From positions 1 to 32,187 of the forward strand of contig CACPBQ010000019.1 in assembly GCA_902632125.1 (NCBI GenBank): 32,187 nucleotides of DNA, written 5' to 3'. Below the pieces are notes generated by a model. The model saw nothing but the letters and a program-made list of their open reading frames with translations, was not told the origin of the DNA and made no database searches. Below, piece after piece: positions 5,143-29,745 of this stretch. Origin of the DNA: Paracoccaceae bacterium (GTDB lineage Bacteria > Pseudomonadota > Alphaproteobacteria > Rhodobacterales > Rhodobacteraceae). The position numbers and the translations under genes were made by a program. How positions within the stretch are numbered: the stretch's first letter is position 1; each line of letters begins with the position of its first letter.

Positions 5143-6213
5143 TTAGAGGCTATATTTTTTTACTTTTTCAATAAGTGTTGTGCGTAACAATTTTAGGTCT
5201 TTAGCGGCTTCGCTTGTATTGCCATCATTTCTATCGAGAGCTGCTTCAATAAAGACGATTTCGATATCTCTTAGAAGACTCCGTAGATCCACTGAATTAT
5301 TCGTTTCAAACCATTTTGTAAAATCTTCAGGTTTTGGCGGATTAGTATTTTGCTCTTGGGTTTTTTCTTCAAGATTTTGCAATCCTAATTCGTCAAACTC
5401 GTACCATATTTGTGCCTGTTCTTCGGTTCTATTGATCACACCACTATCAACGTTGAGTAGGTATTTGTTCACGTCATCGCCATTAACAGTAGCGCTGGGA
5501 AAAAAGATTAGTGAACGCTCGACTACATTTCGAACTTCACGTATATTGCCTGGCCAAGTATATTCCTTCAGTGCTTCTATTGCAGTGTTGTCAAAGTTGG
5601 GCCGCTTTGTATTTTCTGATTTAGTTTTTTGTTTTAAAAAATGATCTACCAACTCGGGTATGTCATCAGAGCGTTCGTTCAAGCTCGGGACAGAGATAGG
5701 GAAGACATTCAATCTGAACAATAGATCTTCTCGGAAACTATTATTTTCCACCAAAACTTCTAAATTCTTGTGGGTGGCACAAATTATCCGAACGTCTAGT
5801 TTTACTTCTTTACTACTGCCAACCTTTGAAATTATTGAATTTTCTAAAACTCGAAGAAGTTTTGTTTGAACGCCAAAGGGCATGTCGCCAATTTCATCGA
5901 GAAACAAAGTGCCTTTGTTAGCCTGTTCAAATTTACCCATGGTAGTTTTAAGAGCGCCTGTAAAAGCTCCCTTTTCGAAACCAAATAATTCAGCTTCTAT
6001 CAATTCACTCGGGATAGCCGCGCAATTCAGCGCTATAAAATTTCCTTTTCTTCTGCTTTCATCGTGGATGGCTTCAGCAACTAATTCTTTCCCGGAACCT
6101 GTCGGTCCATTTATTATTACAGGCGACCCTGATGAGGCAATTAAGCCTATCATTTTTTTTAATTCGATAGCTGGCTTGGATTGTCCAATTATCTTGTTAT
6201 CTAATGACGTCAT
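5143..6213 (-). CDS. Sigma-54-dependent flagellar activator, FleQ/FlrA class, no N-terminal domain
   Basis: Enhancer-binding protein that remodels RNA polymerase-sigma-54. The AAA+ domain begins almost at residue 1: Walker A GPTGSGKE (36-43), sigma-54 contact loop GAFTGA (82-87), Walker B TLFLDEIGD (102-110), then FREDLLFRLNVFPI and WPGNIREVRN. After a Gln/Glu-rich linker, a Fis-type helix-turn-helix closes the protein (NTSEAAKDLKLLRTTLIEKV). FleQ and FlrA normally carry a further N-terminal domain of about 130 residues; none is present, so activity is probably set by amount or by a partner. A TTG at 6216 is an alternative start; GAGG lies 7 bases from it and 10 from the ATG. The ten sigma-54 sites in this window are its likely targets (inference). 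Confidence 0.92.
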   Translation of the reverse strand: MTSLDNKIIGQSKPAIELKKMIGLIASSGSPVIINGPTGSGKELVAEAIHDESRRKGNFIALNCAAIPSELIEAELFGFEKGAFTGALKTTMGKFEQANKGTLFLDEIGDMPFGVQTKLLRVLENSIISKVGSSKEVKLDVRIICATHKNLEVLVENNSFREDLLFRLNVFPISVPSLNERSDDIPELVDHFLKQKTKSENTKRPNFDNTAIEALKEYTWPGNIREVRNVVERSLIFFPSATVNGDDVNKYLLNVDSGVINRTEEQAQIWYEFDELGLQNLEEKTQEQNTNPPKPEDFTKWFETNNSVDLRSLLRDIEIVFIEAALDRNDGNTSEAAKDLKLLRTTLIEKVKKYSL

Positions 6214-6230
6214 CAAGTTTGTGCCTCTTT

Positions 6231-10387: not shown

Positions 10388-10403
10388 AGCAAATATTGTG
10401 CCA
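10388..10403 (-). promoter_or_regulatory. Sigma-54 promoter for flgP-flgT-flgA
   Basis: The minus strand reads TGGCACAATATTTGCT, a near-perfect -24/-12 match. The start would be near 10378, 22 bases before the flgP ATG at 10356. It overlaps the extended open frame of flgP and rules out its upstream ATG. Confidence 0.8.
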
Positions 10404-10450
10404 TATTAAAACTTCTATAATCTGTGGCCTGACCAATTTCGCGGATTGTA

Positions 10451-10480
10451 AAATATTAAGATACTCTAAAACATTAAGAT
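10451..10480 (+). repeat. Direct repeat upstream of the flhA promoter
   Basis: AAATATTAAGAT at 10451-10462 and AAACATTAAGAT at 10469-10480 differ at one base and start 18 bases apart. They sit just upstream of the flhA sigma-54 site, between the two divergent promoters, where an activator could bind. AT-rich chance repetition cannot be excluded. Confidence 0.35.
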
Positions 10481-10488
10481 TTAAAGCC

Positions 10489-10504
10489 TGGCACAAATCA
10501 TGCT
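10489..10504 (+). promoter_or_regulatory. Sigma-54 promoter for flhA-flhF-flhG-fliA
   Basis: TGGCACAAATCATGCT has a perfect -24 box and GC at -12 (ATGCT). The start would be near 10515, about 95 bases before the flhA ATG. The rest of the gap between flgP and flhA (10405-10608) holds only this site, the direct repeat and AT-rich sequence. Confidence 0.7.
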
Positions 10505-14574: not shown

Positions 14575-15293
14575 TGTCAAATATGATGCATGGATATAAT
14601 CATAATACTGATGACAAAGCTCAGCTTATTAATGACAATTTAGATATTGTTAAGAAAATTGCTTTTTTTTATGTCGGGCGTGTTGGTAAAGTTGTTGAAG
14701 TTGACGATCTTTTACAATTAGGCATGGTAGGTCTAATAGAAGCTGCTCACAATTATACGCCGCAGGAGGACGTCTCCTTCGTAAACTATGCCCGTTTGCG
14801 GGTAAAGGGTGCTATTGTAGACTACTTAAGAAAGTCATCAAATCTGTGCCGTGGGACAATTAGACGTAAGCAAGATTACGAACGAGCCAAGAGAAAGTTG
14901 GAAAAAGAACTTTTTAGGCAACCGGAAACTCAGGAGATTGCTAAAGAACTGAATGTTGAAGTAAATGATCTTTTATCCTGGCAACACGATTTTGCTGCTA
15001 GCCAACATCAAAGTTTAGAAGAAGCATCTGACGCCTACGGTGATTTTCTTTTTGCAACAGATAAGTCTGTTGAGGAAAAAATCTTCAACGGTGAATTGAA
15101 AGATATTTTAAGAACAAAGTTAGAAGATCTAAATGAACAACAATTAATGGTTTTACAATTATATTATGTTGAAGAGCTAAATGTTTATGAAATTGGAGAA
15201 ATTTTATCTGTTTCGACGGGTCGAGTTTCACAAATTAAATCTGCTGCGATTAAGAAACTAAAATCCCTTATAGAAAGCGAAGTAAATGCGTGA
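14571..15293 (+). CDS. fliA: RNA polymerase sigma-28 factor FliA
   Basis: Sigma factor for late flagellar genes such as flagellin. It has 240 residues, the family size. Region 2 shows VEVDDLLQLGMVGLIEAAHN and FVNYARLRVKGAIVDYLRK; region 3 has RKLEKELFRQPETQEIAKEL; region 4 has LNVYEIGEILSVSTGRVSQI, the -35-binding helix-turn-helix. The first ATG overlaps the flhG stop (ATGA); ATGs at 14574, 14583 and 14586 are alternatives. FlgM at 7627 is its presumed anti-sigma factor. Its own transcription probably comes from the flhA sigma-54 promoter. Confidence 0.96.
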   Translation: MMSNMMHGYNHNTDDKAQLINDNLDIVKKIAFFYVGRVGKVVEVDDLLQLGMVGLIEAAHNYTPQEDVSFVNYARLRVKGAIVDYLRKSSNLCRGTIRRKQDYERAKRKLEKELFRQPETQEIAKELNVEVNDLLSWQHDFAASQHQSLEEASDAYGDFLFATDKSVEEKIFNGELKDILRTKLEDLNEQQLMVLQLYYVEELNVYEIGEILSVSTGRVSQIKSAAIKKLKSLIESEVNA

Positions 15294-15327
15294 TGCATCG
15301 GGCTCAGGCTCTAGAATTGGAGGCCAG

Positions 15328-15705
15328 ATGCAGCTAACGATTTTGAGTGCGGAGATTTTAAAGTCGCAAATAGGCGCAAAAGTTGATATTTCCATTTCAT
15401 GCAATATATCGGAGCTTCCGAACTATCACTGCAATTTGATTTTGACCCAGAAAAACCAAGACTTAGGCCCTATAGGTTTTTTGCAATTTGATAGTAAAAG
15501 GCCATTGGCAAGTGCAGTGATAAGTTTAAAGGAAGACGATTTTAAAGATATCTCTGAACTCTTAAAAACTTCTCCACCAAGAAGCGCTTCAATTTTCCTT
15601 TACACTGAGGTTTATGACGAAGACTCCATAATTAGCCGGTCCATGTCCGGTGAAGCAACCACAGTTGATATCAATGATTTAAGTTGGCGGTATCCACTTA
15701 TTTAG
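15328..15705 (+). CDS. Hypothetical beta-rich protein downstream of fliA
   Basis: Not recognised. An ATG at 15286 overlaps fliA, but the ATG at 15328 follows GGAGG at four bases and gives 125 residues starting MQLTILSAEILKSQIGAKVD. The composition suggests alternating strands, with no signal peptide and no membrane segment, so it is probably cytoplasmic. It has two Cys (SCN, HCN) without a metal-motif spacing. It is the last plus-strand gene after fliA, and its stop overlaps that of the convergent gene by four bases. Probably read with the flhA series. A flagellar role is inferred from position only. Confidence 0.7.
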   Translation: MQLTILSAEILKSQIGAKVDISISCNISELPNYHCNLILTQKNQDLGPIGFLQFDSKRPLASAVISLKEDDFKDISELLKTSPPRSASIFLYTEVYDEDSIISRSMSGEATTVDINDLSWRYPLI

Positions 15706-16163
15706 CCTTTTTCTGGCTGTTCTGCTTCACTGATCTTTGCTTTTCCGTCTTCAACTAACTTTTTGGCATTTTCTTCGGTCACTTCGAGAATAGTGTCTTT
15801 GGCTAGTTTTTTTCCATTTACAGAGCTACTTTTCAGTATAGTCACTTCGACCATTTTCTCTGGTGCTTCATCGTCAAAAAGGTTGTCTATTGCTGTTTGA
15901 TCTTCATCATCCAAATCATCGAATACGTCAGTATTCTCGATTTCGTTCAAAGTGTAAATGTAAGGGTCGTGTAAAGTTGCGTACAGCTTGTTTCGCAGTA
16001 CCCAGCTTTTTGCAGACAATAAAGCGAGCTTTTTAGTGTGATTTTTTTCCGACTGCAGTGAACTGTTTATCTCGTCCAATGCATCCGAAAAAGATTGCTC
16101 TGCATATTTCATAAGTATTTTATTTCTATCTTTATGTAATTTAGGCGTTTCTTCTTGGGCCAT
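15702..16163 (-). CDS. Hypothetical acidic protein divergent from flgB
   Basis: Not recognised with confidence. The 153-residue product has a helical N-terminal half (SFSDALDEINSSLQSEKN), a very acidic middle (DVFDDLDDEDQTAIDNLFDD) and a small C-terminal module (VEVTILKSSSVNGKKL, then LEVTEENAKKLVEDGKAKIS). That module resembles the short beta-domains with V-x-G-K and AKxLVxxGxA seen in some phage structural proteins; the likeness is from memory. No signal peptide or membrane segment. GGAG precedes the ATG. It forms a single-gene unit with its own sigma-54-like promoter, back to back with flgB, which ties it to the flagellar regulon. Confidence 0.75.
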   Translation of the reverse strand: MAQEETPKLHKDRNKILMKYAEQSFSDALDEINSSLQSEKNHTKKLALLSAKSWVLRNKLYATLHDPYIYTLNEIENTDVFDDLDDEDQTAIDNLFDDEAPEKMVEVTILKSSSVNGKKLAKDTILEVTEENAKKLVEDGKAKISEAEQPEKG

Positions 16164-16182
16164 CTATCACACTCCTCTACTT

Positions 16183-16198
16183 TGGCACGCTACTTGCA
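16183..16198 (+). promoter_or_regulatory. Sigma-54 promoter for flgBCD
   Basis: TGGCACGCTACTTGCA matches the sigma-54 consensus at every conserved position. The start would be near 16209. The ATG at 16155 that opens the longest flgB frame lies upstream of it, so translation must start later. Its -12 box shares TTGCAA (16194-16199) with the opposing promoter. Confidence 0.85.
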
Positions 16199-16210
16199 AT
16201 ATTTGAACCA
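16195..16210 (-). promoter_or_regulatory. Sigma-54 promoter for the acidic-protein gene
   Basis: The minus strand reads TGGTTCAAATATTGCA: GG and GC are at the right spacing and the -12 box is perfect. The start would be near 16185, about 22 bases before the ATG at 16163. It shares the TTGCAA -12 palindrome with the flgB promoter, so two polymerases cannot bind at once. Confidence 0.6.
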
Positions 16211-16235
16211 AATAAAACAAAAATTGGAAATAGCT

Positions 16236-16622
16236 GTGAAGTCAATCGAAAATCAACTAAAGGTACATGCCGAGGCTCTTAATTTGAGGTCTCAAAGGAA
16301 TGAAATTCTGGCGTCCAATATTGCTAACTCGGCTACTCCAAATTTTAAAGCTAAAGATTTAGATTTCGAAGCTTTGCTAAATTCACGCATGGGTTTTGGC
16401 AAAGTAAATACATCTGATGCTAGGCACTTTGATATTAGCATCGGTCCTAACGAAGAGGGCGTTAAGTTCAGACAAAATGTTACGCCTTCAAAGGATGGAA
16501 ACACAGTTGAGCTTCATGTTGAGCAATTACAATTTTCCGAAAATGTAATGCGCTATCAGACTTCTCTTGAATTTCTAAACCGAAAGATAGCCGGTCTTAT
16601 GTCGGCCATTAAAGGTGAATAA
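16236..16622 (+). CDS. flgB: Proximal rod protein FlgB
   Basis: Rod protein of 128 residues that links the MS ring to the rest of the axle. It shows LNLRSQRNEILASNIANSAT followed by PNFKAKDLDFEALL, the FlgB/rod N-terminal signature, and a C-terminal helix with MRYQTSLEFLNRKIAGLMSA. I choose the GTG at 16236: it lies downstream of the sigma-54 start near 16209, follows GGAAA at a suitable distance and gives the normal FlgB length. The in-frame ATG at 16155 would precede the promoter and add 27 residues unlike the family. First gene of flgB-flgC-flgD. Confidence 0.93.
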   Translation: MKSIENQLKVHAEALNLRSQRNEILASNIANSATPNFKAKDLDFEALLNSRMGFGKVNTSDARHFDISIGPNEEGVKFRQNVTPSKDGNTVELHVEQLQFSENVMRYQTSLEFLNRKIAGLMSAIKGE

Positions 16623-16623
16623 G

Positions 16624-17040
16624 ATGTCTGATCTCAAAAATATTTTTGATGTTGCAGCACGTGGTATGTCCGCCCAGATGGTGAGATTAAATACTGTCGC
16701 AAGTAACTTGGCGAATGCCCGCTCAGTAGCTTCATCAGAGGCTGAGGCCTATCGCGCCATAAAACCTGTCTTTAGCACTTTATATGCAGATGATCTTGAA
16801 CGCAGTGGAGTTTCCTCTGTTGATGTTGTGGATATTGTTGCTGTCGATCGAGAGCCAGAGAAAGTTTATCAGCCTGGCCATCCCAAGGCAGACAAAGATG
16901 GCTACATTTACATGGCAGCCGTAAATACGGAGGAAGAATTGGTTGAGATGCTCGAAGCATCCCGACAATACGAAAATAATGTGGAAGTTGTCAGTACACT
17001 TCGTGGACTGATGATGCGTACCATAAGCATGGGTAAATAG
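16624..17040 (+). CDS. flgC: Proximal rod protein FlgC
   Basis: Rod protein of 138 residues. The N-terminus MSDLKNIFDVAARGMSAQMV followed by NTVASNLANARSVASSE is typical of FlgC, as are VYQPGHPKADKDGYIYMAAV and the C-terminal helix EMLEASRQYENNVEVVSTLR. A GTG at 16615 is in frame, but the ATG at 16624 follows AAAGGTG and begins like the family. One base separates it from flgB. It assembles with FlgB and FlgF below the FlgG distal rod. Confidence 0.96.
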   Translation: MSDLKNIFDVAARGMSAQMVRLNTVASNLANARSVASSEAEAYRAIKPVFSTLYADDLERSGVSSVDVVDIVAVDREPEKVYQPGHPKADKDGYIYMAAVNTEEELVEMLEASRQYENNVEVVSTLRGLMMRTISMGK

Positions 17041-17048
17041 GAGTAATC

Positions 17049-17741
17049 ATGACTACCATCGATCCGAACAGCGCGCAGGCGGCACTTTTTGAAAAACTAG
17101 GCATAACAAGACAAGCTGGCACTCAAAAGGCCGCTAAAGATACCTTAGGCCAATCTGATTTTCTTAAGCTTATGACGACGCAACTTCAAAACCAAGACCC
17201 ATTTGCCCCCATGGATAATGGAGATTTTATAGCTCAAATGGCTCAGTTTTCGACTGTCACGGGCATTCAGGAAGTTAACAATTCTATTGGTCAATTGGTC
17301 GATGAATTTGATCAGGCTAGAATAGCAACAGCTTCAAACCTACTTGGACATTCTGTACTTGTTCCCGGGGATATTGGAAGAGCTGATGAAGAGGGCCAAT
17401 TACATGGTGTTCTTGATCTTCCAGAGCCAACCTTTATGACGCAGCTGACTTATTATGATGCAGAGACAAATGAGAAACTTTTCTCAGAGGATCTTGGTCC
17501 GATGGCGGCTGGCTTGGTAGGCTTCTCTTGGGGAGACATACCCCAAGATATCTTGGATTTTAATAAGCGGATTAAAATAGAAGCTTTAATTGATACTGGA
17601 AATGGTCCAGAACAGTTAAGTCCTTCCATTTACTCTAAAGTGATATCAGCCTCCGTCGGTTCTGGTGACACTAAACAAGTTTTGGTGAATGTAGAAGATT
17701 ATGGCGATATCGACGTATCCTCAGCAATCAATTTCCGATAA
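17049..17741 (+). CDS. flgD: Hook cap protein FlgD
   Basis: Scaffold that caps the growing hook while FlgE subunits add beneath it. It has 230 residues, the usual size. The N-terminal export and cap region is LGQSDFLKLMTTQLQNQDPF followed by APMDNGDFIAQMAQFSTVTG, the strongest FlgD signature. Next come a FlgD Ig/Tudor-type segment (LLGHSVLVPGDIG) and a C-terminal beta domain ending near VNVEDYGDIDVSSAINF. The cap is of normal length although the hook protein it folds is about three times the usual size. Last gene of the flgBCD unit, eight bases after flgC. Confidence 0.95.
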   Translation: MTTIDPNSAQAALFEKLGITRQAGTQKAAKDTLGQSDFLKLMTTQLQNQDPFAPMDNGDFIAQMAQFSTVTGIQEVNNSIGQLVDEFDQARIATASNLLGHSVLVPGDIGRADEEGQLHGVLDLPEPTFMTQLTYYDAETNEKLFSEDLGPMAAGLVGFSWGDIPQDILDFNKRIKIEALIDTGNGPEQLSPSIYSKVISASVGSGDTKQVLVNVEDYGDIDVSSAINFR

Positions 17742-17766: not shown

Positions 17767-17801
17767 AAAGAATTCTTGGCATAGTTTTTGCAAAGAATTC
17801 T
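17767..17801 (+). repeat. AAAGAATTCT pair flanking the flgE promoter
   Basis: AAAGAATTCT occurs at 17767-17776 and again at 17792-17801, starting 25 bases apart. Each copy contains the 8-base palindrome AGAATTCT. The first copy ends where the -24 TGG begins and the second starts at the last base of the -12 box, so a protein bound there would overlap the polymerase site. Confidence 0.5.
17777..17792 (+). promoter_or_regulatory. Sigma-54 promoter for flgEF
   Basis: TGGCATAGTTTTTGCA matches the consensus in both boxes. The start would be near 17803, with AGGAG before the flgE ATG at 17831. It is nearly identical to the flgG promoter, including the spacer (TGGCATAGTYTTTGC). Confidence 0.85.
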
Positions 17802-17830
17802 CTAATCAAAGACCGTAACAGGAGTTAAAT

Positions 17831-20800
17831 ATGTCTTTTTATACAGCATTGACCGGCTTGAAAGGCGCACAAACAGATATAGCCACAACCTCTAACAACA
17901 TTGCAAATGTTGGTTCTAGCGGATTTAAGAAAAGCCGCGCTGAATTTGGAGATATTTTTGGTTCGACACCTTTGCAAACAAATACAATAGGTGCGGGTAC
18001 GGCAACGAAATCTATAAAACAACAATTTTCTCAGGGTAACATAAGCCAGTCAACAAATACGTTGGACATGGCTGTTTCTGGTCAGGGTTTTTTCGCTCTT
18101 AAAGGTGGCGGTAATGCTGGTCAAACTGTGTTTACGCGGAACGGTTCTTTTGAAGTTAATGATGAAGGTTTTATAGTTGATAGTAACGGTCAATTTTTAC
18201 TAGGCTATCCTGTTGATAACGATGGGTCGGTTGCTGATAAAACATTAGAAGGTGCAGTTCAAATGCAGCTAGCCGCTTCTTTTGGTGACCCTGTTGCAAC
18301 GAAAAAAATCAACGCAGGTGTTAACTTGCCTTCAGATGCACCAGTAATAGCAGCAAACGTCGCATTTGATGCAAATGACGCAAAAACTTATTCTGCATCG
18401 TCATCGGTAACTATTTTTGATAACGGTGGAAACCCAAAATCGGCTACAGTTTTCTATATTAAATCACAAAATCCAACTGACGCAGATCAAACATTTAAAT
18501 ATTCTACAAAAATGTTTGTTGATGGCGTTGAAATTAAGCCTCAGTTAACACGGGCAACCGACACGAGGGGTGTGACCCAGTTTATCGATAAATTTGGACA
18601 GAAAACAACAGCTCCAACAGAAATTAATCCCGCGTATATTTTAGAGGGTAAAGGTTCGCCGCTTTATAAGGCAGATGATCTTGGTGAGGCTACAAAGTCA
18701 ACGCCGGCAATGCTTACCGGTTTAGGCCTTGAGGCATTTTTGGGTGATGGAAAAACAGTAGAAATAGTGACGGATCCAATGCAGTTCAAACGGACCATGG
18801 AATACCAGGCACTTGCAAATATAGATCCACCGGTGCCTGGGACATTTTGGGGCAAAGACTTTTTACTCGTCGATGTAGACAATAGTGGTCCTGTTTCGAT
18901 TAATATCCCACCTGGGACATATACCGGTGTGCAGTTGGCTGATGCCGCTGAAGTGGCATTGCGAGATGCTTTTGGCGACGATAAAATGGTTCAACTTACA
19001 GCTGGGGTCGATAATACATTTTCTATTGATTTTAAGAAAGCATCTGGCGACGGAAAATCCACAGGATTACCTTCTCCAATTGTTGTTGATCTTCATGATG
19101 ACACATTTGTTACAACTACTCCTGAAAACGGCATGACAATGGATACATTTCTCAGTCACGCACAGCGTTTAATTACCGATCAATTGAATGGTTATATTCA
19201 GGATCCAAATGACGCTGACGGTGTTGATGCAACAAAAGTAGATAATATTGGCGCAGATGGGAAATTATTTAAGAAGGTGGTTGGCGCAGCTATTAATAAA
19301 CAAGCCGTGCCGCTCAAATTTGATGTAATTAAAGTGAACCACACAAACGCAGATAGTGGCGGTACAGTTGAGAGATACCTTGGATATTCCAACGTAGCTA
19401 ATCAGCCTTTTATTAAAGCTTATGATAAATTGTTTCGTCAACAAGGTGCTGGTTTTGATGGAGCGATAGCTAATAATGGAACTGATGGCTCAATTAAAGC
19501 GATTGAAGTTGATGCTGATGGCTTTCTGACAGTTACAATCAATGGTGAAATAGCTGGCGATATGGAAGTCCTACGTTTTCAGCAGAATGCTACCGATGCA
19601 AAAAAAGAAGAGTTAATTGCAATGTTTGGCTCAAACGATATTGCAATTAAAAAGACTAGCACCATAGTTGATGCTGCTGATGGCGGTGATAAAGATACAC
19701 AATATCAACTTGATTTTATTGTACCTGGCGGAGCACTTCCAGTGATAGGGGACCAAAGTCCAATTTCCATTCTGGCAAAACCTTCGGATTTTATTGAAGC
19801 GTACCTAGAAGATACGGAAGGTTTAGTTGAAGGGGTTAAGGAAGTTTTTTACTCAAATAAAATTGTAGTAAGAGAAATTGGAGATTCTGCAAAACGAAAT
19901 GCGGCAGATGAAGCTGCGGCTTTTGCGGGTTTTGCAACTACTACAGCTGGCGTTAATCTTGCTGCCTATGGCCTTAATGCAGTTACTGAAACAATGAATT
20001 GGGTAGATGATCGTGATCCTTCAGTAAAAATTGGCTATGATGAAACCAATCAACGGCTGACTTTTGATGGCGTTAATACGGCACTTGGCAAGGGTACGGG
20101 CGTAGGCTTTGATACCTTTACTGTGTACAGTAAAAAATTAGATGCCGGGAAAAATCGATTAGGTATTCCTGCGTTGGGAGAAAACCCCGAAATTAGCCTC
20201 AAAACTGATAATTTACTTCTCGGGGACGCATTTGTTAATGTTGGGCCAGAGGTGCGCCAAAATAACAAGCGCTACGGCATGGAAGTTGAATTCGATACTG
20301 TGAACAATGTCTTTAATATAAGCAGTGGTTCGACTGGGGAAGCTTTGGCTGGTGGCTCTGTCGTTGGTGTTGATTTGGCTCAAAATGCTTCTAGCGTTGC
20401 TGTTGGTCGGTTCAATTTAACTTTAGTGGGCGAGAAAGATCCAACTGACGCTGCGGATTTTGAAGCCAATAAGATAGGCAAAGGCGCAAACCAAATTATG
20501 GGTTTCCCTAGAGAGGGAATTGAGGGTTACAGAGAGCCGACAGGTCTTGTGTCAAAACCTGCTGTAGTGGTGGGCCTTGAAGGTCTTATGGATATGACCC
20601 AACCGTTTACTGTCACTACTTTAGCAAATGAAAATGTTTTCAACGTGGTTGTAGGTGGCGTGAGTGCATCGATCGCAATTCCTGAAGGAAACTACAAAGG
20701 TGAAACTCTTGCCGTCGCCCTTGAAGAGCGTATTAATTCGATGAAGAACCCAATTTCTGGACAGTCTGTTGGCGGTGTAGATGTAAAATATGATGCCGTT

Positions 20801-21568
20801 GCTAATAATTTCACGTTTACCACCGCGACGACGGGTGAAGGAAATACACTTGCAATTAATGGGGCCTTGAAATTTGGTCTAAAAGACATTCCGCTCGGTT
20901 TGGGTGAAACAACCATGGTCAGGCAACCTGTTCAGGCGACAGATGAGTTGGGACGTCCACTCTTCATTTCTCCTGCGGGTGAGATTGTTGCTAATAACCA
21001 GGATTTTGCGGATAATATGGTAGAAAATTTCTTTCCACTTTATTTGGATGAGGGTGAGCTTACCTTTGATCGTGACGGGAAGATTGTCAGCCCGATAACG
21101 GATGTTACTTACGCCGGCGGTTTGACAGAACTTACCTTGGACTTTTCGACTGCAACTCAGCTGGACCAACCATTTTCTGCTAGAGATGTAACTCAGGATG
21201 GGTTTTCGGCTGGTCGTCTTACAAACCTTGAAATTGACAATTATGGTAACGTGCAGGCTGGATACTCAAATGGTCAAAATGTAATTTTAGGTAAAATAAT
21301 GCTGGCTAGTTTTGCGAGTGAAAGTGGGTTAAAGCAAATTGGTAATTCGACCTTTATCGCAACAGCGGCGAGTGGTGATCCAGAGCTAGGTGAAGGTGCT
21401 GAGGATGGGTTTGGGCAGATCTTGTCTGGCTCAATCGAACGGTCCAACGTGGATATTACGGAGGAGTTGGTAAACTTAATCACTTCTCAACGTAACTATC
21501 AGGCTGCTGCGAAAGCTATTGAGACCTCGACCAGTATGACCCAAACTATTATCAACATCCGAAGTTAA
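17831..21568 (+). CDS. flgE: Giant flagellar hook protein FlgE
   Basis: Hook subunit of 1245 residues, about three times the usual 400. The D0/D1 ends are canonical: MSFYTALTGLKGAQTDIATT, then SNNIANVGSSGFKKSRAEFG and FALKGGGNAGQTVFTRNGSF at the front; GLKQIGNSTFIATAASGDPE, then LSGSIERSNVDITEELVNLI and RNYQAAAKAIE at the back. The middle, about residues 170-1090, is extra outer-domain sequence. Two parts of it are alike: about 344-425 (SINIPPGTYTGVQLADAAEV) and 937-1010 (SIAIPEGNYKGETLAVALEE), each followed by a strand-rich stretch ending in a short Gly-rich motif. No cysteine is seen and the frame is unbroken. AGGAG precedes the ATG. First gene of flgE-flgF. Confidence 0.96.
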   Translation: MSFYTALTGLKGAQTDIATTSNNIANVGSSGFKKSRAEFGDIFGSTPLQTNTIGAGTATKSIKQQFSQGNISQSTNTLDMAVSGQGFFALKGGGNAGQTVFTRNGSFEVNDEGFIVDSNGQFLLGYPVDNDGSVADKTLEGAVQMQLAASFGDPVATKKINAGVNLPSDAPVIAANVAFDANDAKTYSASSSVTIFDNGGNPKSATVFYIKSQNPTDADQTFKYSTKMFVDGVEIKPQLTRATDTRGVTQFIDKFGQKTTAPTEINPAYILEGKGSPLYKADDLGEATKSTPAMLTGLGLEAFLGDGKTVEIVTDPMQFKRTMEYQALANIDPPVPGTFWGKDFLLVDVDNSGPVSINIPPGTYTGVQLADAAEVALRDAFGDDKMVQLTAGVDNTFSIDFKKASGDGKSTGLPSPIVVDLHDDTFVTTTPENGMTMDTFLSHAQRLITDQLNGYIQDPNDADGVDATKVDNIGADGKLFKKVVGAAINKQAVPLKFDVIKVNHTNADSGGTVERYLGYSNVANQPFIKAYDKLFRQQGAGFDGAIANNGTDGSIKAIEVDADGFLTVTINGEIAGDMEVLRFQQNATDAKKEELIAMFGSNDIAIKKTSTIVDAADGGDKDTQYQLDFIVPGGALPVIGDQSPISILAKPSDFIEAYLEDTEGLVEGVKEVFYSNKIVVREIGDSAKRNAADEAAAFAGFATTTAGVNLAAYGLNAVTETMNWVDDRDPSVKIGYDETNQRLTFDGVNTALGKGTGVGFDTFTVYSKKLDAGKNRLGIPALGENPEISLKTDNLLLGDAFVNVGPEVRQNNKRYGMEVEFDTVNNVFNISSGSTGEALAGGSVVGVDLAQNASSVAVGRFNLTLVGEKDPTDAADFEANKIGKGANQIMGFPREGIEGYREPTGLVSKPAVVVGLEGLMDMTQPFTVTTLANENVFNVVVGGVSASIAIPEGNYKGETLAVALEERINSMKNPISGQSVGGVDVKYDAVANNFTFTTATTGEGNTLAINGALKFGLKDIPLGLGETTMVRQPVQATDELGRPLFISPAGEIVANNQDFADNMVENFFPLYLDEGELTFDRDGKIVSPITDVTYAGGLTELTLDFSTATQLDQPFSARDVTQDGFSAGRLTNLEIDNYGNVQAGYSNGQNVILGKIMLASFASESGLKQIGNSTFIATAASGDPELGEGAEDGFGQILSGSIERSNVDITEELVNLITSQRNYQAAAKAIETSTSMTQTIINIRS

Positions 21569-25018: not shown

Positions 25019-25369
25019 ATGACACAGCTTATTAAACCTGGATTAGAAAGTCTCGCCGCTCTGCAGAAAATGCAAACTGAGTATTCTTCTGAAGCTAACG
25101 ATTTTCAGATTGCTAAGGCTGCTTCAGGAAAAGGTGCCGATCCAGAATTGAAGGCTGTGGCTGATCAGTTTGAAGCTATATTCTTAGAAATGCTTCTCAA
25201 GCAGGCGCGCGATAGTAAATTGAATGAAGGGTTATTTGAAAATAATGCAGATGATAATTTTGTTCAACTTTTTGACCGAGAATTAGCTAAAAGTTCCAGT
25301 GAGAAGGTCGATATTGGTATTGCAGAAGCAATATTAAATCAAATGGCTCCGCATAGGCTTGAAAAATGA
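25019..25369 (+). CDS. flgJ: Rod-binding protein FlgJ, single domain
   Basis: Rod-capping protein of 116 residues with only the N-terminal rod-binding domain: DPELKAVADQFEAIFLEMLL, then KQARDSKLNEGLFENNADDN and FVQLFDRELAKSS. The C-terminal peptidoglycan hydrolase domain found in enterobacterial and Vibrio FlgJ (about 300 residues) is absent. A separate lytic enzyme must open the wall; none is in this window. Single-domain FlgJ is common in alphaproteobacteria. The stop overlaps the flgK start (ATGA). Confidence 0.93.
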   Translation: MTQLIKPGLESLAALQKMQTEYSSEANDFQIAKAASGKGADPELKAVADQFEAIFLEMLLKQARDSKLNEGLFENNADDNFVQLFDRELAKSSSEKVDIGIAEAILNQMAPHRLEK

Positions 25370-28300
25370 GTGATATCTATGGAATAGCCAAATCTGGTCT
25401 TCAGGCTTACAAAGAGGGACTTGCTACGACTGGCCAAAACATCGCCAATGTTGGGAATAAAGACTATGCTCGAAGAGAAGCCCCGATTAGTGAAGTCAAA
25501 GCTAACAACGATGTTTTGCAGGTTTCCAATACTGCAGGGTTTGGGGTAAGAATAGATGGCATTACTCGGGCATTTGACCAGTTCATTGATACGCAACTGC
25601 AAAGTGCAACTTCTAGTTTTTCTTTCTCAACATCGCAGGCTTTGATTCTCAATCAATTGGAAACAGTAGTTCGACCAGCTGAAGGCAATGTTTCCCAAAA
25701 AATACAGGAATTATTCTCTTCTTTGAATTCGGTCGCACAAGATCCGTCTGACTTGGCTTCACGACATGTGGCTGCTGATGCATCCAAAGCGCTGGTAAAT
25801 TCTATAACCACTGTTGCTAATGGTATTTCTGATTTACGAACATTTGTTAGTCAAGATATTGAAAGTAATATCAAAGAGGTGAATGATATCTTAACTCAAA
25901 TAGCAAACGTACAAAATCAATTGCTGGGTATTTCTTCAAGCAATCGCGGACCGAATGAATTACTCGATAAAAGAGACGCATTATTGAATGATTTAAGTGA
26001 ATTGATAGATATAACTGTAGATTATAAATCTAATGGCATACTCGAAGTCAATGCGGGTACTTTTGGCCAGGGTCAGTCACTTATAACTGGTGTACAAATT
26101 TCAAAACTCGAAGTTCAAAAAGTTGATGGGGCTTCGAAAATTTTTATGAGAACTGCAAATGGTGATGGGTTATCAAAAATACAAGTGCAGGCTGGAAAGA
26201 TAGCCGGAAATCTGGCCTCAGATTTAACTCTGGTTGAGACCAAATCAGCGTTAGACCAGCTGTCTCGAAAGCTTGCAAGTGAATTCAACGAAGCGCACAC
26301 TTTCGGAGTTGATTTAAATGGTGACCTTGGTGGAAAATTTTTCGGTTTGGATGGTGTAAGAGTTGAGAAACAAGGCACTATGCAGAGTTCGTCACAAATC
26401 ATATTATCTGGTGATACAGAAAAATTTTTGGGACAACAATTAGAGATTGACTATTCCGCTGCTGAGCGATCTTGGACATTAAAGAATAATGGTGGAATAG
26501 AACTTGGTAAGTTTACAGATTTTCTTGATTATGAAGGTCTCCAGATTAATGTTTCTGGAACTGGGGAAATCGGAGATAATTTTTTAATAAACTTTACGGA
26601 AGGGCTTTCAGAAAATCTGACTTTCCAACTGGAGAACGGCCGGCAAATTGCGGCAAGTTCTTTTTACTTAGTCGAACGGGATCCGCTAAATACCAGCTCA
26701 GCAAGCGTATCGATAAGTCGCTTTGATGAAGCCGACCCGGGACCTGCTCCTAGTTTGAACGCAATGTTTGCGACGCAAAGAAATGGTGCAAACCCTATAG
26801 ATTTTTTGAGCAACGGTGCTCAGAGCACCAATGGCGCTCTTGGCGTTATACAGAATGTGGATGATTTAAATAATTTAACTTCAATCAAAACACAGTCCAA
26901 ACTTCAATTCAGCGAAAATATATCTTCTTTAGACTCCTCGAGCCAGCTTGTAATAAAACTCAACAATGTAGATAGAATTTTTAAACTCGGTAGCCTTGCT
27001 AGTTCGATCGATAATTACAAAGTTCTGGCTGATTATCTGAATATTGGTGCTATAAGGTCAGACGATGCAGATGCACTATCCTTTACGGACTTGGGTCTTT
27101 TTGCGGGCGGTAATATTTCAACTTTAAGCGTAACCTCAGCCTCATTGCCAAATCATTCTTCTTTCCCTTCAATGCAAAGTGGAACTTTCGGTGCTTCAAC
27201 GGGTATTTTGATTCCCGCACAGCCAGGGAACGCTGATATTCAAATTTTTACAAGAGAAGGTATTCAATTGGCTGGGCGCCCCTTAAGTCAAGCAGAAATA
27301 ACTTCATATATTTCTTTTGATAACGGTTTCTCTAGAAATGCTGAGTACAGGAGTGACTTTCTAACCAACGATTTGTCAGATAGTTACATCGGAGCATCTG
27401 TTGTAAGAAAGACAACTGAAGGAAATCATCTTGCATCAATTTCAAGCCTCGGACTGGCTAGCTCCGTTAATTCAAATCTAAGTGTTGCCGCCATGGCAGG
27501 ATTTCCTGCAACTCGCCCCATTATGGGTGCGCCGCTCACCATTACAAATGATGTTGGTGGATCATACACATTCCAACCTCAGGTGGGGATGATGGCCGGC
27601 AATTTAGCCGAAAGTCTTGAAAAAGAAATATCTAAACTTGGATTGGCTGCGAGTGCTTCAAATAGACTTGAGATATTTAACATTGCCAACGGCAAATTGA
27701 GTTTTGATTTATTGGGCGATAATTCTGAGGCAGTTTCTATTAGCAATACTATTTCTAGTGGCGAGACAGGCAGTTTGGTCAGTCAGATAAATAGCTCATC
27801 CGATGTTACTGGGATAAAGGCTTATAAATCAGGAGAAGGCGCTCTAATACTTCAAAAAATAGATGGAAATGACATTGTCATTAAGAATGTTGTTACAGCA
27901 AATGCATCTTCGCTTTCAACACGACAAATTGATGAATTTGGTGAAACTATAACGACTGCTGCTCAAGGCATTCCGGTTACAGTGAACACAGGTAATTACA
28001 TTGTTTCTGGGGGGCAAATAAAAATTACCAGCCCTTCAGAGTTAAAGGTTACGTGTGGAGTACATAATTTAACCAGTCAAAAATCAGAATTTATAAGCAG
28101 CTTCATTGATAAAGAATTTGACCTTGATAATAAAAAAATCGATTTCAAGTTTGATGCTCTAGCTGCAGTTGATTCAAATTTGCATGATGAAACGGGTTTG
28201 ATAGGCGTTGCTGCTTCCAGTGCTTATTCTTTTGTATTGTCGTCAGATAACCAAAATCAAAGTAACTCGGTTTTGGTAAAACCTAATTCAGCTGATGAAT

Positions 28301-29745
28301 TGACTGCTGGTGCAGTGGCTGGAGCTATAGTTTCGGAGTTGCGAAAAGCTTCACCACAGTCAAATTTTGTCGGTAATGCATTTAATTTCCAGAATGGCTT
28401 TCCTGCTGATCAGAGTACATTAGAATTTCAAATAGGAGACCAAAAATATTTTGCTGTTTTGAATAATAAGCTTTCTTATACAGTTGATGGCAGTAACGTA
28501 ATAATTGATGGTAAGAGTTTTTCTCAAGCGGATGCTTTGAAACAAATAGTCAATGCAAGTTCTTTCACTATTTCTGGTCCTGAAAAAGACAGACTCAAAG
28601 TCGGTTTTGAGGAGAGTGGCGGTGGTTTCCGTCTATTTGCGGCCGCAAAAGATGGAGTAGTTTCGGGACATGGTGTCCGCCTTGCTGAAAGTAACTCGCC
28701 AGCGCAAAAAAACATTTTCCATTTAGATCATAATGCCTCAGGTGACACAAAAACTCGCATCGTTGGTGGTGAATTTGATGTTACTCAAGCAGCAAAGGCA
28801 AATTTTGCTCAAGTTGTTGTTGGGAGTACTACAATAGATCTATCATTTAATCCTGCGACAAATCCAAAAATAACGCAGTCTTCGAATGTATCGGGTGTTG
28901 CTATAACTCTTGAAAATACAGGCACGAACAAAGGGCGTGTCGTCGTTACAGTAGATCAATCAACTGCCGATCTGGATGTTGGTTTAAAGGCGACAAACAA
29001 TTCGGCCACGTTTGGCATTATCACATCTTCCTCGCAGCTTACACATAATAGCGATGGCTTTTCAGTAATTAACCACGATAACGAAAGAGTCTCTACCAGT
29101 GCAAAAGTAGAGTCTTTAGCAAATGAGGTGTTTTCTATTAGCGGGTTAGCTGGCGAAGATTTAATAATTGTCTCGGCTGGTACAGGTAAAATTTCTCTTT
29201 TGGGAGACGTAAATACTAAGGTTACTGAAGTGAACCCTCGGGAATTGAAAGCAAAAGTTTCTGCGAATGATCCAAAGCAAATGGACATTTTTGATATGAA
29301 ATCGGGTGATCTTTTGGGTTCCCGTAAAATAAGTGAAACAAATGACTTTTTATTTCGAGACTTTAAATGGGAATTAAATGGAAATGTTGCCAGCAACGAT
29401 AGCTTTAACGTCAGAACGACCACTGACAGATTAGATGATGCTTCAAATTTGCTTCAGTTAATGAAACTATCAGAATTATCCCCGGCGACAGGGAAAGGTG
29501 GATATTCGCAACAATATAACGACTTGGTGCTAGATGTTGGCTTTAATGTTCGCTCAAGTGAGCAAGGATTGGAAAATGCCAAAGTTATTTATGACGTAGC
29601 AGCAGATCGGAAGTCAAGCTTTTCAGGTGTCGATTTGGATACAGAGGCGGCGCGACTTTTGGAACAGCAACAGGCATATCAGGCGCTAGCTAAGGTCTTG
29701 AGCACAGCTAAAGAGATGGTCGACACTCTTTTGAGGTCGATGTAG
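25366..29745 (+). CDS. flgK: Giant hook-filament junction protein FlgK
   Basis: Hook-associated protein 1 of 1459 residues; FlgK is usually 450-650. The N-terminal D0/D1 region is normal: MSDIYGIAKSGLQAYKEGLA, TTGQNIANVGNKDYARRE, then the D1 helices with NVSQKIQELFSSLNSVAQDP and GPNELLDKRDALLNDLSELI. The C-terminus is also normal: SSFSGVDLDTEAARLLEQQQ followed by AYQALAKVLSTAKEMVDTLL. The extra roughly 900 residues between them are beta-rich and Ser/Asn/Gly-rich. A single cysteine (Cys897, in KVTCGVHN) is unusual for an exposed axial protein. The frame is continuous. The start overlaps the flgJ stop (ATGA). Confidence 0.95.
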   Translation: MSDIYGIAKSGLQAYKEGLATTGQNIANVGNKDYARREAPISEVKANNDVLQVSNTAGFGVRIDGITRAFDQFIDTQLQSATSSFSFSTSQALILNQLETVVRPAEGNVSQKIQELFSSLNSVAQDPSDLASRHVAADASKALVNSITTVANGISDLRTFVSQDIESNIKEVNDILTQIANVQNQLLGISSSNRGPNELLDKRDALLNDLSELIDITVDYKSNGILEVNAGTFGQGQSLITGVQISKLEVQKVDGASKIFMRTANGDGLSKIQVQAGKIAGNLASDLTLVETKSALDQLSRKLASEFNEAHTFGVDLNGDLGGKFFGLDGVRVEKQGTMQSSSQIILSGDTEKFLGQQLEIDYSAAERSWTLKNNGGIELGKFTDFLDYEGLQINVSGTGEIGDNFLINFTEGLSENLTFQLENGRQIAASSFYLVERDPLNTSSASVSISRFDEADPGPAPSLNAMFATQRNGANPIDFLSNGAQSTNGALGVIQNVDDLNNLTSIKTQSKLQFSENISSLDSSSQLVIKLNNVDRIFKLGSLASSIDNYKVLADYLNIGAIRSDDADALSFTDLGLFAGGNISTLSVTSASLPNHSSFPSMQSGTFGASTGILIPAQPGNADIQIFTREGIQLAGRPLSQAEITSYISFDNGFSRNAEYRSDFLTNDLSDSYIGASVVRKTTEGNHLASISSLGLASSVNSNLSVAAMAGFPATRPIMGAPLTITNDVGGSYTFQPQVGMMAGNLAESLEKEISKLGLAASASNRLEIFNIANGKLSFDLLGDNSEAVSISNTISSGETGSLVSQINSSSDVTGIKAYKSGEGALILQKIDGNDIVIKNVVTANASSLSTRQIDEFGETITTAAQGIPVTVNTGNYIVSGGQIKITSPSELKVTCGVHNLTSQKSEFISSFIDKEFDLDNKKIDFKFDALAAVDSNLHDETGLIGVAASSAYSFVLSSDNQNQSNSVLVKPNSADELTAGAVAGAIVSELRKASPQSNFVGNAFNFQNGFPADQSTLEFQIGDQKYFAVLNNKLSYTVDGSNVIIDGKSFSQADALKQIVNASSFTISGPEKDRLKVGFEESGGGFRLFAAAKDGVVSGHGVRLAESNSPAQKNIFHLDHNASGDTKTRIVGGEFDVTQAAKANFAQVVVGSTTIDLSFNPATNPKITQSSNVSGVAITLENTGTNKGRVVVTVDQSTADLDVGLKATNNSATFGIITSSSQLTHNSDGFSVINHDNERVSTSAKVESLANEVFSISGLAGEDLIIVSAGTGKISLLGDVNTKVTEVNPRELKAKVSANDPKQMDIFDMKSGDLLGSRKISETNDFLFRDFKWELNGNVASNDSFNVRTTTDRLDDASNLLQLMKLSELSPATGKGGYSQQYNDLVLDVGFNVRSSEQGLENAKVIYDVAADRKSSFSGVDLDTEAARLLEQQQAYQALAKVLSTAKEMVDTLLRSM

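Follow-up and report, generated by a model that had tools for sequence, protein, structure and literature searches.

Bidirectional promoters have become a topic of research only recently, and the work on them has been built on the -10 element of sigma-70 promoters. In Escherichia coli and in other prokaryotes it has been described that a near-symmetric core element is read in both directions (Warman et al. 2026, PMC12825309). In this study, the two divergent transcription starts are most commonly 18 bp apart, distances of 10 and 23 bp are also common, and the opposing polymerases cannot bind together. Five of these promoters were tested; at their basal activity they were too weak to compete, and competition set in once one of the two directions had been activated (PMC12825309). 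Bidirectional sigma-70 promoters have also been described on Salmonella plasmids (PMC10268837, in excerpt). Neither sigma54 nor RpoN is mentioned in the main texts of these two publications.

The statement nearest to a two-way sigma-54 promoter that was retrieved from the open-licence literature concerns E. coli, where sgrR and the divergent sgrST-setA are both under the control of the NtrC-dependent RpoN holoenzyme (PMC8743547). In Salmonella, 20 of 418 RpoN sites were found at bidirectional promoters (PMC10794520). However, neither a common -12 element nor a mirrored -24 element is described in the excerpts of these two papers. In the hrpL/hrpJ region of Pseudomonas syringae, one regulatory region serves a promoter for sigma-54 as well as a divergent one, and polymerase at one of them represses the other, but there the divergent promoter is that of a different sigma factor, HrpL (PMC5263251, in excerpt). 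In the alphaproteobacterium Rhodobacter sphaeroides, sigma-54 drives the flagellar genes of the Fla1 system together with flagellar activators, but the excerpted text describes neither a bidirectional promoter nor an acidic partner (PMC7277832). A limited search of the open-licence literature in PubMed Central, based on excerpts, did not retrieve a description of a pair of opposing sigma-54 promoters with a common -12 element. Such a pair is also not described in the excerpts of PMC4551910, PMC4591121, PMC5263251, PMC10794520, PMC8743547, PMC11704786, PMC10268837, PMC7277832 and PMC12363192, and PMC3930126 does not mention the terms divergent, bidirectional, overlapping or flgB. Shared-core bidirectional promoters are thus known for sigma-70, and the sigma-54 case may so far be undescribed in the open-licence literature.

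The locus analyzed here lies in a stretch of 32,187 nucleotides from a Paracoccaceae bacterium (contig CACPBQ010000019.1), which is called the window throughout. Upstream of flgB, a 30-bp element at 16182-16211, TTGGCACGCTACTTGCAATATTTGAACCAA, contains one sigma-54 promoter on each strand. A preliminary description had proposed that two opposing promoters share one -12 palindrome, and its sites were recovered in the window sequence. The plus-strand site at 16183-16198 reads TGGCACGCTACTTGCA, the minus-strand site at 16210-16195 reads TGGTTCAAATATTGCA, and the TTGCAA at 16194-16199 is the -12 box common to both strands. The spacing is exactly GG-N10-GC in both directions, and one GC serves both sites. 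The promoter toward flgBCD, TTGGCACGCTACTTGCAA (16182-16199, plus strand), is composed of a -24 box TTGGCAC at 16182-16188 and the -12 box at 16194-16199. The promoter toward the gene for an acidic protein, TTGGTTCAAATATTGCAA as read on the minus strand (16194-16211), is composed of a -24 box at 16211-16208 and the same -12 box, read from 16199 to 16194. The palindrome in the middle is defined both by the window sequence and by its conservation (see below).

The consensus of sigma-54 promoters is TGGCAY-N5-TTGC. At the -24 position TGGC is more common than TGGT, which is one step apart, and C is the more common consensus base after TTGG. The flgB direction exhibits GG-N10-GC with the complete TGGCAY-N5-TTGC, while the acidic-gene direction exhibits GG-N10-GC with TGG and TTGC and has a -24 box with TGGT. 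Because TTGGCAY is nearer to the consensus than the TTGGT of the partner, the flgB direction is probably the stronger one. Transcription is predicted to start near 16209 on the plus strand for flgB and near 16184 on the minus strand for the acidic gene. At the level of sequence the element would therefore agree with the definition of a bidirectional promoter, i.e., one core element and two divergent starts, with TTGCAA in common and predicted starts about 25 bp apart. In both respects, the core element that is read both ways and the closeness of the (here predicted) divergent starts, it resembles the sigma-70 bidirectional promoters. In contrast to these, the common element is not a -10 element but the -12 element of sigma-54, a factor that depends on an AAA+ activator, and the element is flanked on either side by a protein gene, the two being kept as a pair across families.

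The frequency of the pattern within the window was compared with shuffled sequences. The loose form GG-N10-GC-N10-CC occurred once versus 2.41 expected occurrences, which is no better than chance, and therefore the window alone would not be convincing. The full form TTGG-N8-TTGCAA-N8-CCAA occurred at a single site without mismatches. When up to two mismatches were allowed, two matches were found versus 0.32 expected, and three of 100 shuffles reached two matches.

To characterize the conservation, loci were collected via the acidic protein and not via the motif. The sources were a single-sequence search of 61 genomes and profile searches in the family of G417 (34 of 61 genomes match), the family of G044 (25 of 32), 385 genomes of the class (12 match), the family of G140 (2 of 13) and the family of G186 (6 of 28). 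The groups of relatives are denoted f9, f109, f19 and f104; their counts cover the genomes that match the profile. Left out were G210 and G327, which match only the DUF7210-like domain, and G470, which has a partial match and no flgB on the stretch that was taken. The groups f9 and f109 had first been spotted by a motif search and their members were then collected by protein, while f104 and f19 were spotted by the protein profile; f19 was also among the matches of the motif search.

Of the 72 testable loci, 70 have the strict element TGG-N8-TTGCAA-N8-CCA in the gap that separates flgB from the acidic gene; by group, the counts were 6/6 in the window's genus, 25/25 in f9, 33/33 in f109, 6/6 in f19 and 0/2 in f104. 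In the order of collection, it was found in all 61 first loci, in three of four later loci (the fourth, G470, not being testable), in all six f19 loci and in neither of the two f104 loci. According to the preliminary description, the idea would be refuted if close relatives with the gene had lost the GG of the minus-strand -24 box. This was checked, and the box was kept in all six loci of the genus and also in all 64 testable loci of f9, f109 and f19. In both f104 loci the divergent homologue was retained and the minus-strand -24 box was lost. In G506 of this group the flgB-directed TTGGCACGCAGATTGCAA was kept and the mirrored -24 box was missing, and in G140 the palindrome was missing in addition to the mirrored box. 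Because the f104 locus of G506 keeps the flgB promoter without the mirror, the mirrored box does not simply come along with that promoter. As a side observation made by eye on the f104 loci L189 and L192, an AT-rich stretch ahead of the G140 gene may hold another promoter.

The conservation was also resolved at the level of single columns. Among the 61 first loci the invariant columns comprised TTGGCA, TTGCAA, CCA and one additional T in a spacer. The last A of CCAA was present in 56 loci, and the base following the minus-strand TTGG was T in 57 loci and C in four. The column information dropped sharply just beyond both -24 boxes and was mostly below 0.6 bits outside, apart from minor peaks of at most about 1 bit beside the boxes and at the Shine-Dalgarno sequence of the acidic gene. 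Parsimony changes were counted for 70 loci on a tree of FlgB and FlgC. The columns of TTGG, of TTGCAA and of the mirrored CCA had no changes, and the last A of CCAA had two. The spacer columns had 0 to 17 changes, and the flanks had a mean of 16 changes per column and a minimum of seven. The 70 loci contained 33 distinct 28-mers, one of them with an N, and therefore the element is not one copied sequence. Taken together, both directions of the element are conserved across four families of one class. Chance overlap in a single genome would fit the count of the loose pattern in the window, which is not above expectation, but it is hard to reconcile with an element found in 70 of 72 loci and in four of five groups with no changes at the box positions; a chance origin was rejected on conservation, and its probability is close to nil.

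As a control, other sigma-54-like sites in the same clusters were analyzed. Among 39 intergenic sites on 17 stretches from 13 genomes, which are related so that the rows are not independent, the mirrored CCA was present at nine of nine flgB sites, while the mirrored CC was present at none of the 30 other sites. The idea that the mirror is a general property of local sigma-54 sites was thus rejected. Four of the thirteen flgB sites were outside the 39, most likely because they were masked among six sites that had been classed as genic by the long-frame mask. The sigma-54 promoter of flgE at 17776-17805 is one mismatch short of the mirrored form. However, the corresponding sites in G002, G014, G003, G009 and G008 lack the mirror. 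Two further divergent pairs of sigma-54-like sites in the window do not overlap; they are located in 1141-1194 (1156 on the minus strand with 1179 on the plus strand) and in 10388-10504 (10403 on the minus strand with 10489 on the plus strand).

The strict pattern was found in three of 398 genomes of the phylum, the window included. A wide distribution elsewhere was rejected: the G891 site is within a frame of 819 aa, the G563 site has no adjacent frame of more than 83 aa, and neither of these two matches lies between long divergent genes. The N8 pattern was present in 92 of 385 genomes of the class, in at least nine of them at flgB, and 28 of 30 examined loci away from flgB sit within long reading frames. 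With N9 spacing as a control, 64 of the 385 genomes had a match, and 27 of 30 examined loci were in long frames. The examined pattern matches away from flgB, in the class as well as in the phylum, look like background. In G048 a canonical flgB promoter adjoins a divergent motA-like gene; its mirror satisfies GG-N10-GC, but not TTGC, and the DNA is GC-rich.

The gene to the left of the element (15702-16163, minus strand) encodes an acidic protein of 153 aa, in which an acidic linker connects the helical N-terminal part to a C-terminal DUF7210-like domain. It is flanked by flgB and by an open reading frame of 139 aa without an assigned function. The latter (15286-15705), which has fliA on its other side, occupies the equivalent position in the five flagellated relatives of the genus and had no Pfam match at E 0.1 and no NCBIfam match at E 1. 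A Shine-Dalgarno-like GAGGAG (16172-16177, minus strand) was read from the sequence 8 bases ahead of the ATG of the acidic gene. The earliest start codon that the script accepted was ATG or GTG at a distance of 40-63 bases from the minus-strand -24 box in 53 of the 61 first loci, and in 48 of these 53 loci the distance was 45-51 bases. In the other eight loci the first start was TTG (six loci) or an ATG less than 40 bases away (two loci), and therefore the start of the acidic gene is not fixed by the script alone. The leader contained AGG, GGA or GAG in 53 of 53 loci, which is a loose test. With transcription predicted to start about 26 bases from the -24 box, the leader would have a length of about 14-37 bases, mostly 19-25 bases.

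A comparison of the acidic gene with its G002 counterpart yielded a dN of 0.058 and a dS of 1.30 (NG86), and 58 of 77 differences were at third codon positions. It follows from the low dN relative to dS and from the bias for third positions that the gene encodes a protein under purifying selection. In f9 and f109 the protein has a longer acidic tail. Searches of Pfam and NCBIfam for its identity gave only sub-threshold matches; residues 116-142 (15738-15818 in the window) match DUF7210 below the Pfam cut-off. An AlphaFold2 model had a mean pLDDT of 76.2 and a pTM of 0.48, and a Foldseek search of the PDB and viral sets with this model gave no match with an E value of 0.001 or lower. The modelled fold of the DUF7210-like part weakly resembles many small phage proteins. 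The DUF7210-like C-terminal domain is thus the sole lead to the identity of the protein. The acidic gene and flgB co-occur in the same six of 16 genomes of the genus. The constant location of the acidic gene beside flgB suggests that its product is linked to the flagellum and has a part in early rod assembly, and it marks this uncharacterized family as a probable partner in that process.

On the other side of the element flgB (16236-16622, plus strand) encodes the proximal rod protein. Its GTG start was inferred from the sequence, it matches Flg_bb_rod of Pfam with an E value of 7.7e-08, and it resembles the genes at the flgB position of relatives. It is followed by flgC (16615-17040, plus strand), an open reading frame starting with GTG, for which the true start is perhaps the ATG at 16624 and which matches Flg_bbr_C and Flg_bb_rod, and by flgD for the hook cap (17049-17741, plus strand; Pfam FlgD, E 3.2e-24). 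The window represents a flagellar cluster, as Pfam and NCBIfam support FlhA, FliA, FlgB, FlgC, FlgD and a MinD-like ATPase in the flhG position. Further on, Pfam supports proteins of the FlgE/F/G type, FlgH, FlgI, a rod-binding protein in the flgJ position and FlgK; proteins of the FlgA, FlgM and FlgT types are also encoded. The open reading frame in the flgL position had only sub-threshold matches to flagellin, and the one in the flhF position had no decisive Pfam match. Hook proteins of 1245 aa and FlgK proteins of 1459 aa are unusually long, and these are the lengths encoded here by the hook gene in the flgE position (17831-21568; FlgE_D2) and by flgK (25366-29745).

The window also encodes an AAA+ sigma-54 activator with a Fis-type helix-turn-helix (5143-6216, minus strand; Pfam Sigma54_activat, E 1e-64, and HTH_8), which would be the candidate activator of both directions. 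A sigma-54 gene (Sigma54_DBD) is present on contig C56 of the source genome assembly G000, which is 70.55% complete and has a size of 1.9 Mb. In total, a sigma-54 gene was found in nine of 12 tested genomes, including the source genome. In G007 and G011, members of the same genus with 96% and 95% completeness, no match to sigma-54 was found, and none to flgB. G178 carries the element, yet no sigma-54 gene was found in this 92% complete genome.

The most probable reading is that the element is one conserved bidirectional sigma-54 promoter, which would couple flgBCD to the flagellum-linked acidic protein and tie their output at a set ratio. The polymerase with sigma-54 would dock in either orientation, with TTGCAA serving both orientations as the -12 box and the TTGG at the respective end serving as the -24 box. 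The flagellar AAA+ activator would open whichever closed complex is bound, and firing to the right would yield flgBCD, while firing to the left would yield the acidic protein from a transcript with a leader of about 20 bases. Because the -12 box is common to both promoters, the geometry implies that occupancy by polymerase would be mutually exclusive. As both orientations could never be filled together, the output of the partner would be tied to that of the rod operon, and the ratio of partner to rod proteins would be set by the two -24 boxes. The sigma-54 closed complex is stable before activation, and an ATP-driven activator opens it. Docking itself could therefore be the step of competition, and it could matter even before any transcription takes place. 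A set ratio, a damping effect or a switch are possible outcomes of such a competition. A natural sigma-54 example in four families of one class would be a short and testable model for the choice of orientation and its cost.

The preliminary description had interpreted the element as a switch. The opposing sigma-54 promoters with their common -12 box stood up to the analysis and are conserved beyond close relatives, but the switch itself found no support. In such an either/or switch the closed complex would park in one orientation, and expression of the rod genes and of the partner would be separated in time or between cells, so that the orientation of the waiting complex, and not the activator, would decide cell by cell between rod building and the partner protein. 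The common -12 box, which should bar double occupancy, and the binding of the sigma-54 holoenzyme to promoters in an inactive state (PMC4591121, in excerpt) are consistent with this. However, the flagellar locus retains the gene pair along with its spacing and the two boxes, and this fits a joint need and thus makes coupled expression at a set ratio the likelier interpretation. In addition, the tested sigma-70 bidirectional promoters exhibited competition only once the activity rose (PMC12825309). A switch is therefore unlikely, and the same doubt applies to a decision by the parked complex in single cells.

Another reading is that only the flgB promoter is real and that the mirrored half is a dyad arm for an overlapping regulator, either a repressor or an activator. 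The element does form an inverted repeat, although an imperfect one, and both its arms and its centre are invariant. But both halves hold an exact GG-N10-GC and the arms read as sigma-54 -24 boxes, the acidic gene starts at a nearly fixed distance behind the minus-strand half, the spacers are asymmetric and variable, and the 30 other intergenic sites in the same clusters have no dyad, all of which leaves little room for this reading. A further reading is that the leftward promoter acts mainly as a trap, in which the polymerase is held facing backwards so that flgB is damped, and that the acidic protein is incidental. In favor of a trap, the minus-strand -24 box is further from the consensus, but no changes of its CCA occurred among the 70 loci. 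Nevertheless, purifying selection on the acidic gene and the nearly fixed place of its start and of a ribosome-binding-like stretch behind the minus-strand promoter argue against it, and a trap is thus very improbable.

The first codons of flgB and of the acidic gene in f9 and f109 were searched for enhancers by an analysis of synonymous changes. Neither a clear site nor an asymmetry was revealed, which also speaks against a switch. As a minor observation, codons 1-8 of flgB in f9 (loci L143-L167) exhibit few synonymous changes, and this stretch may contain a site for an activator or a signal for translation.
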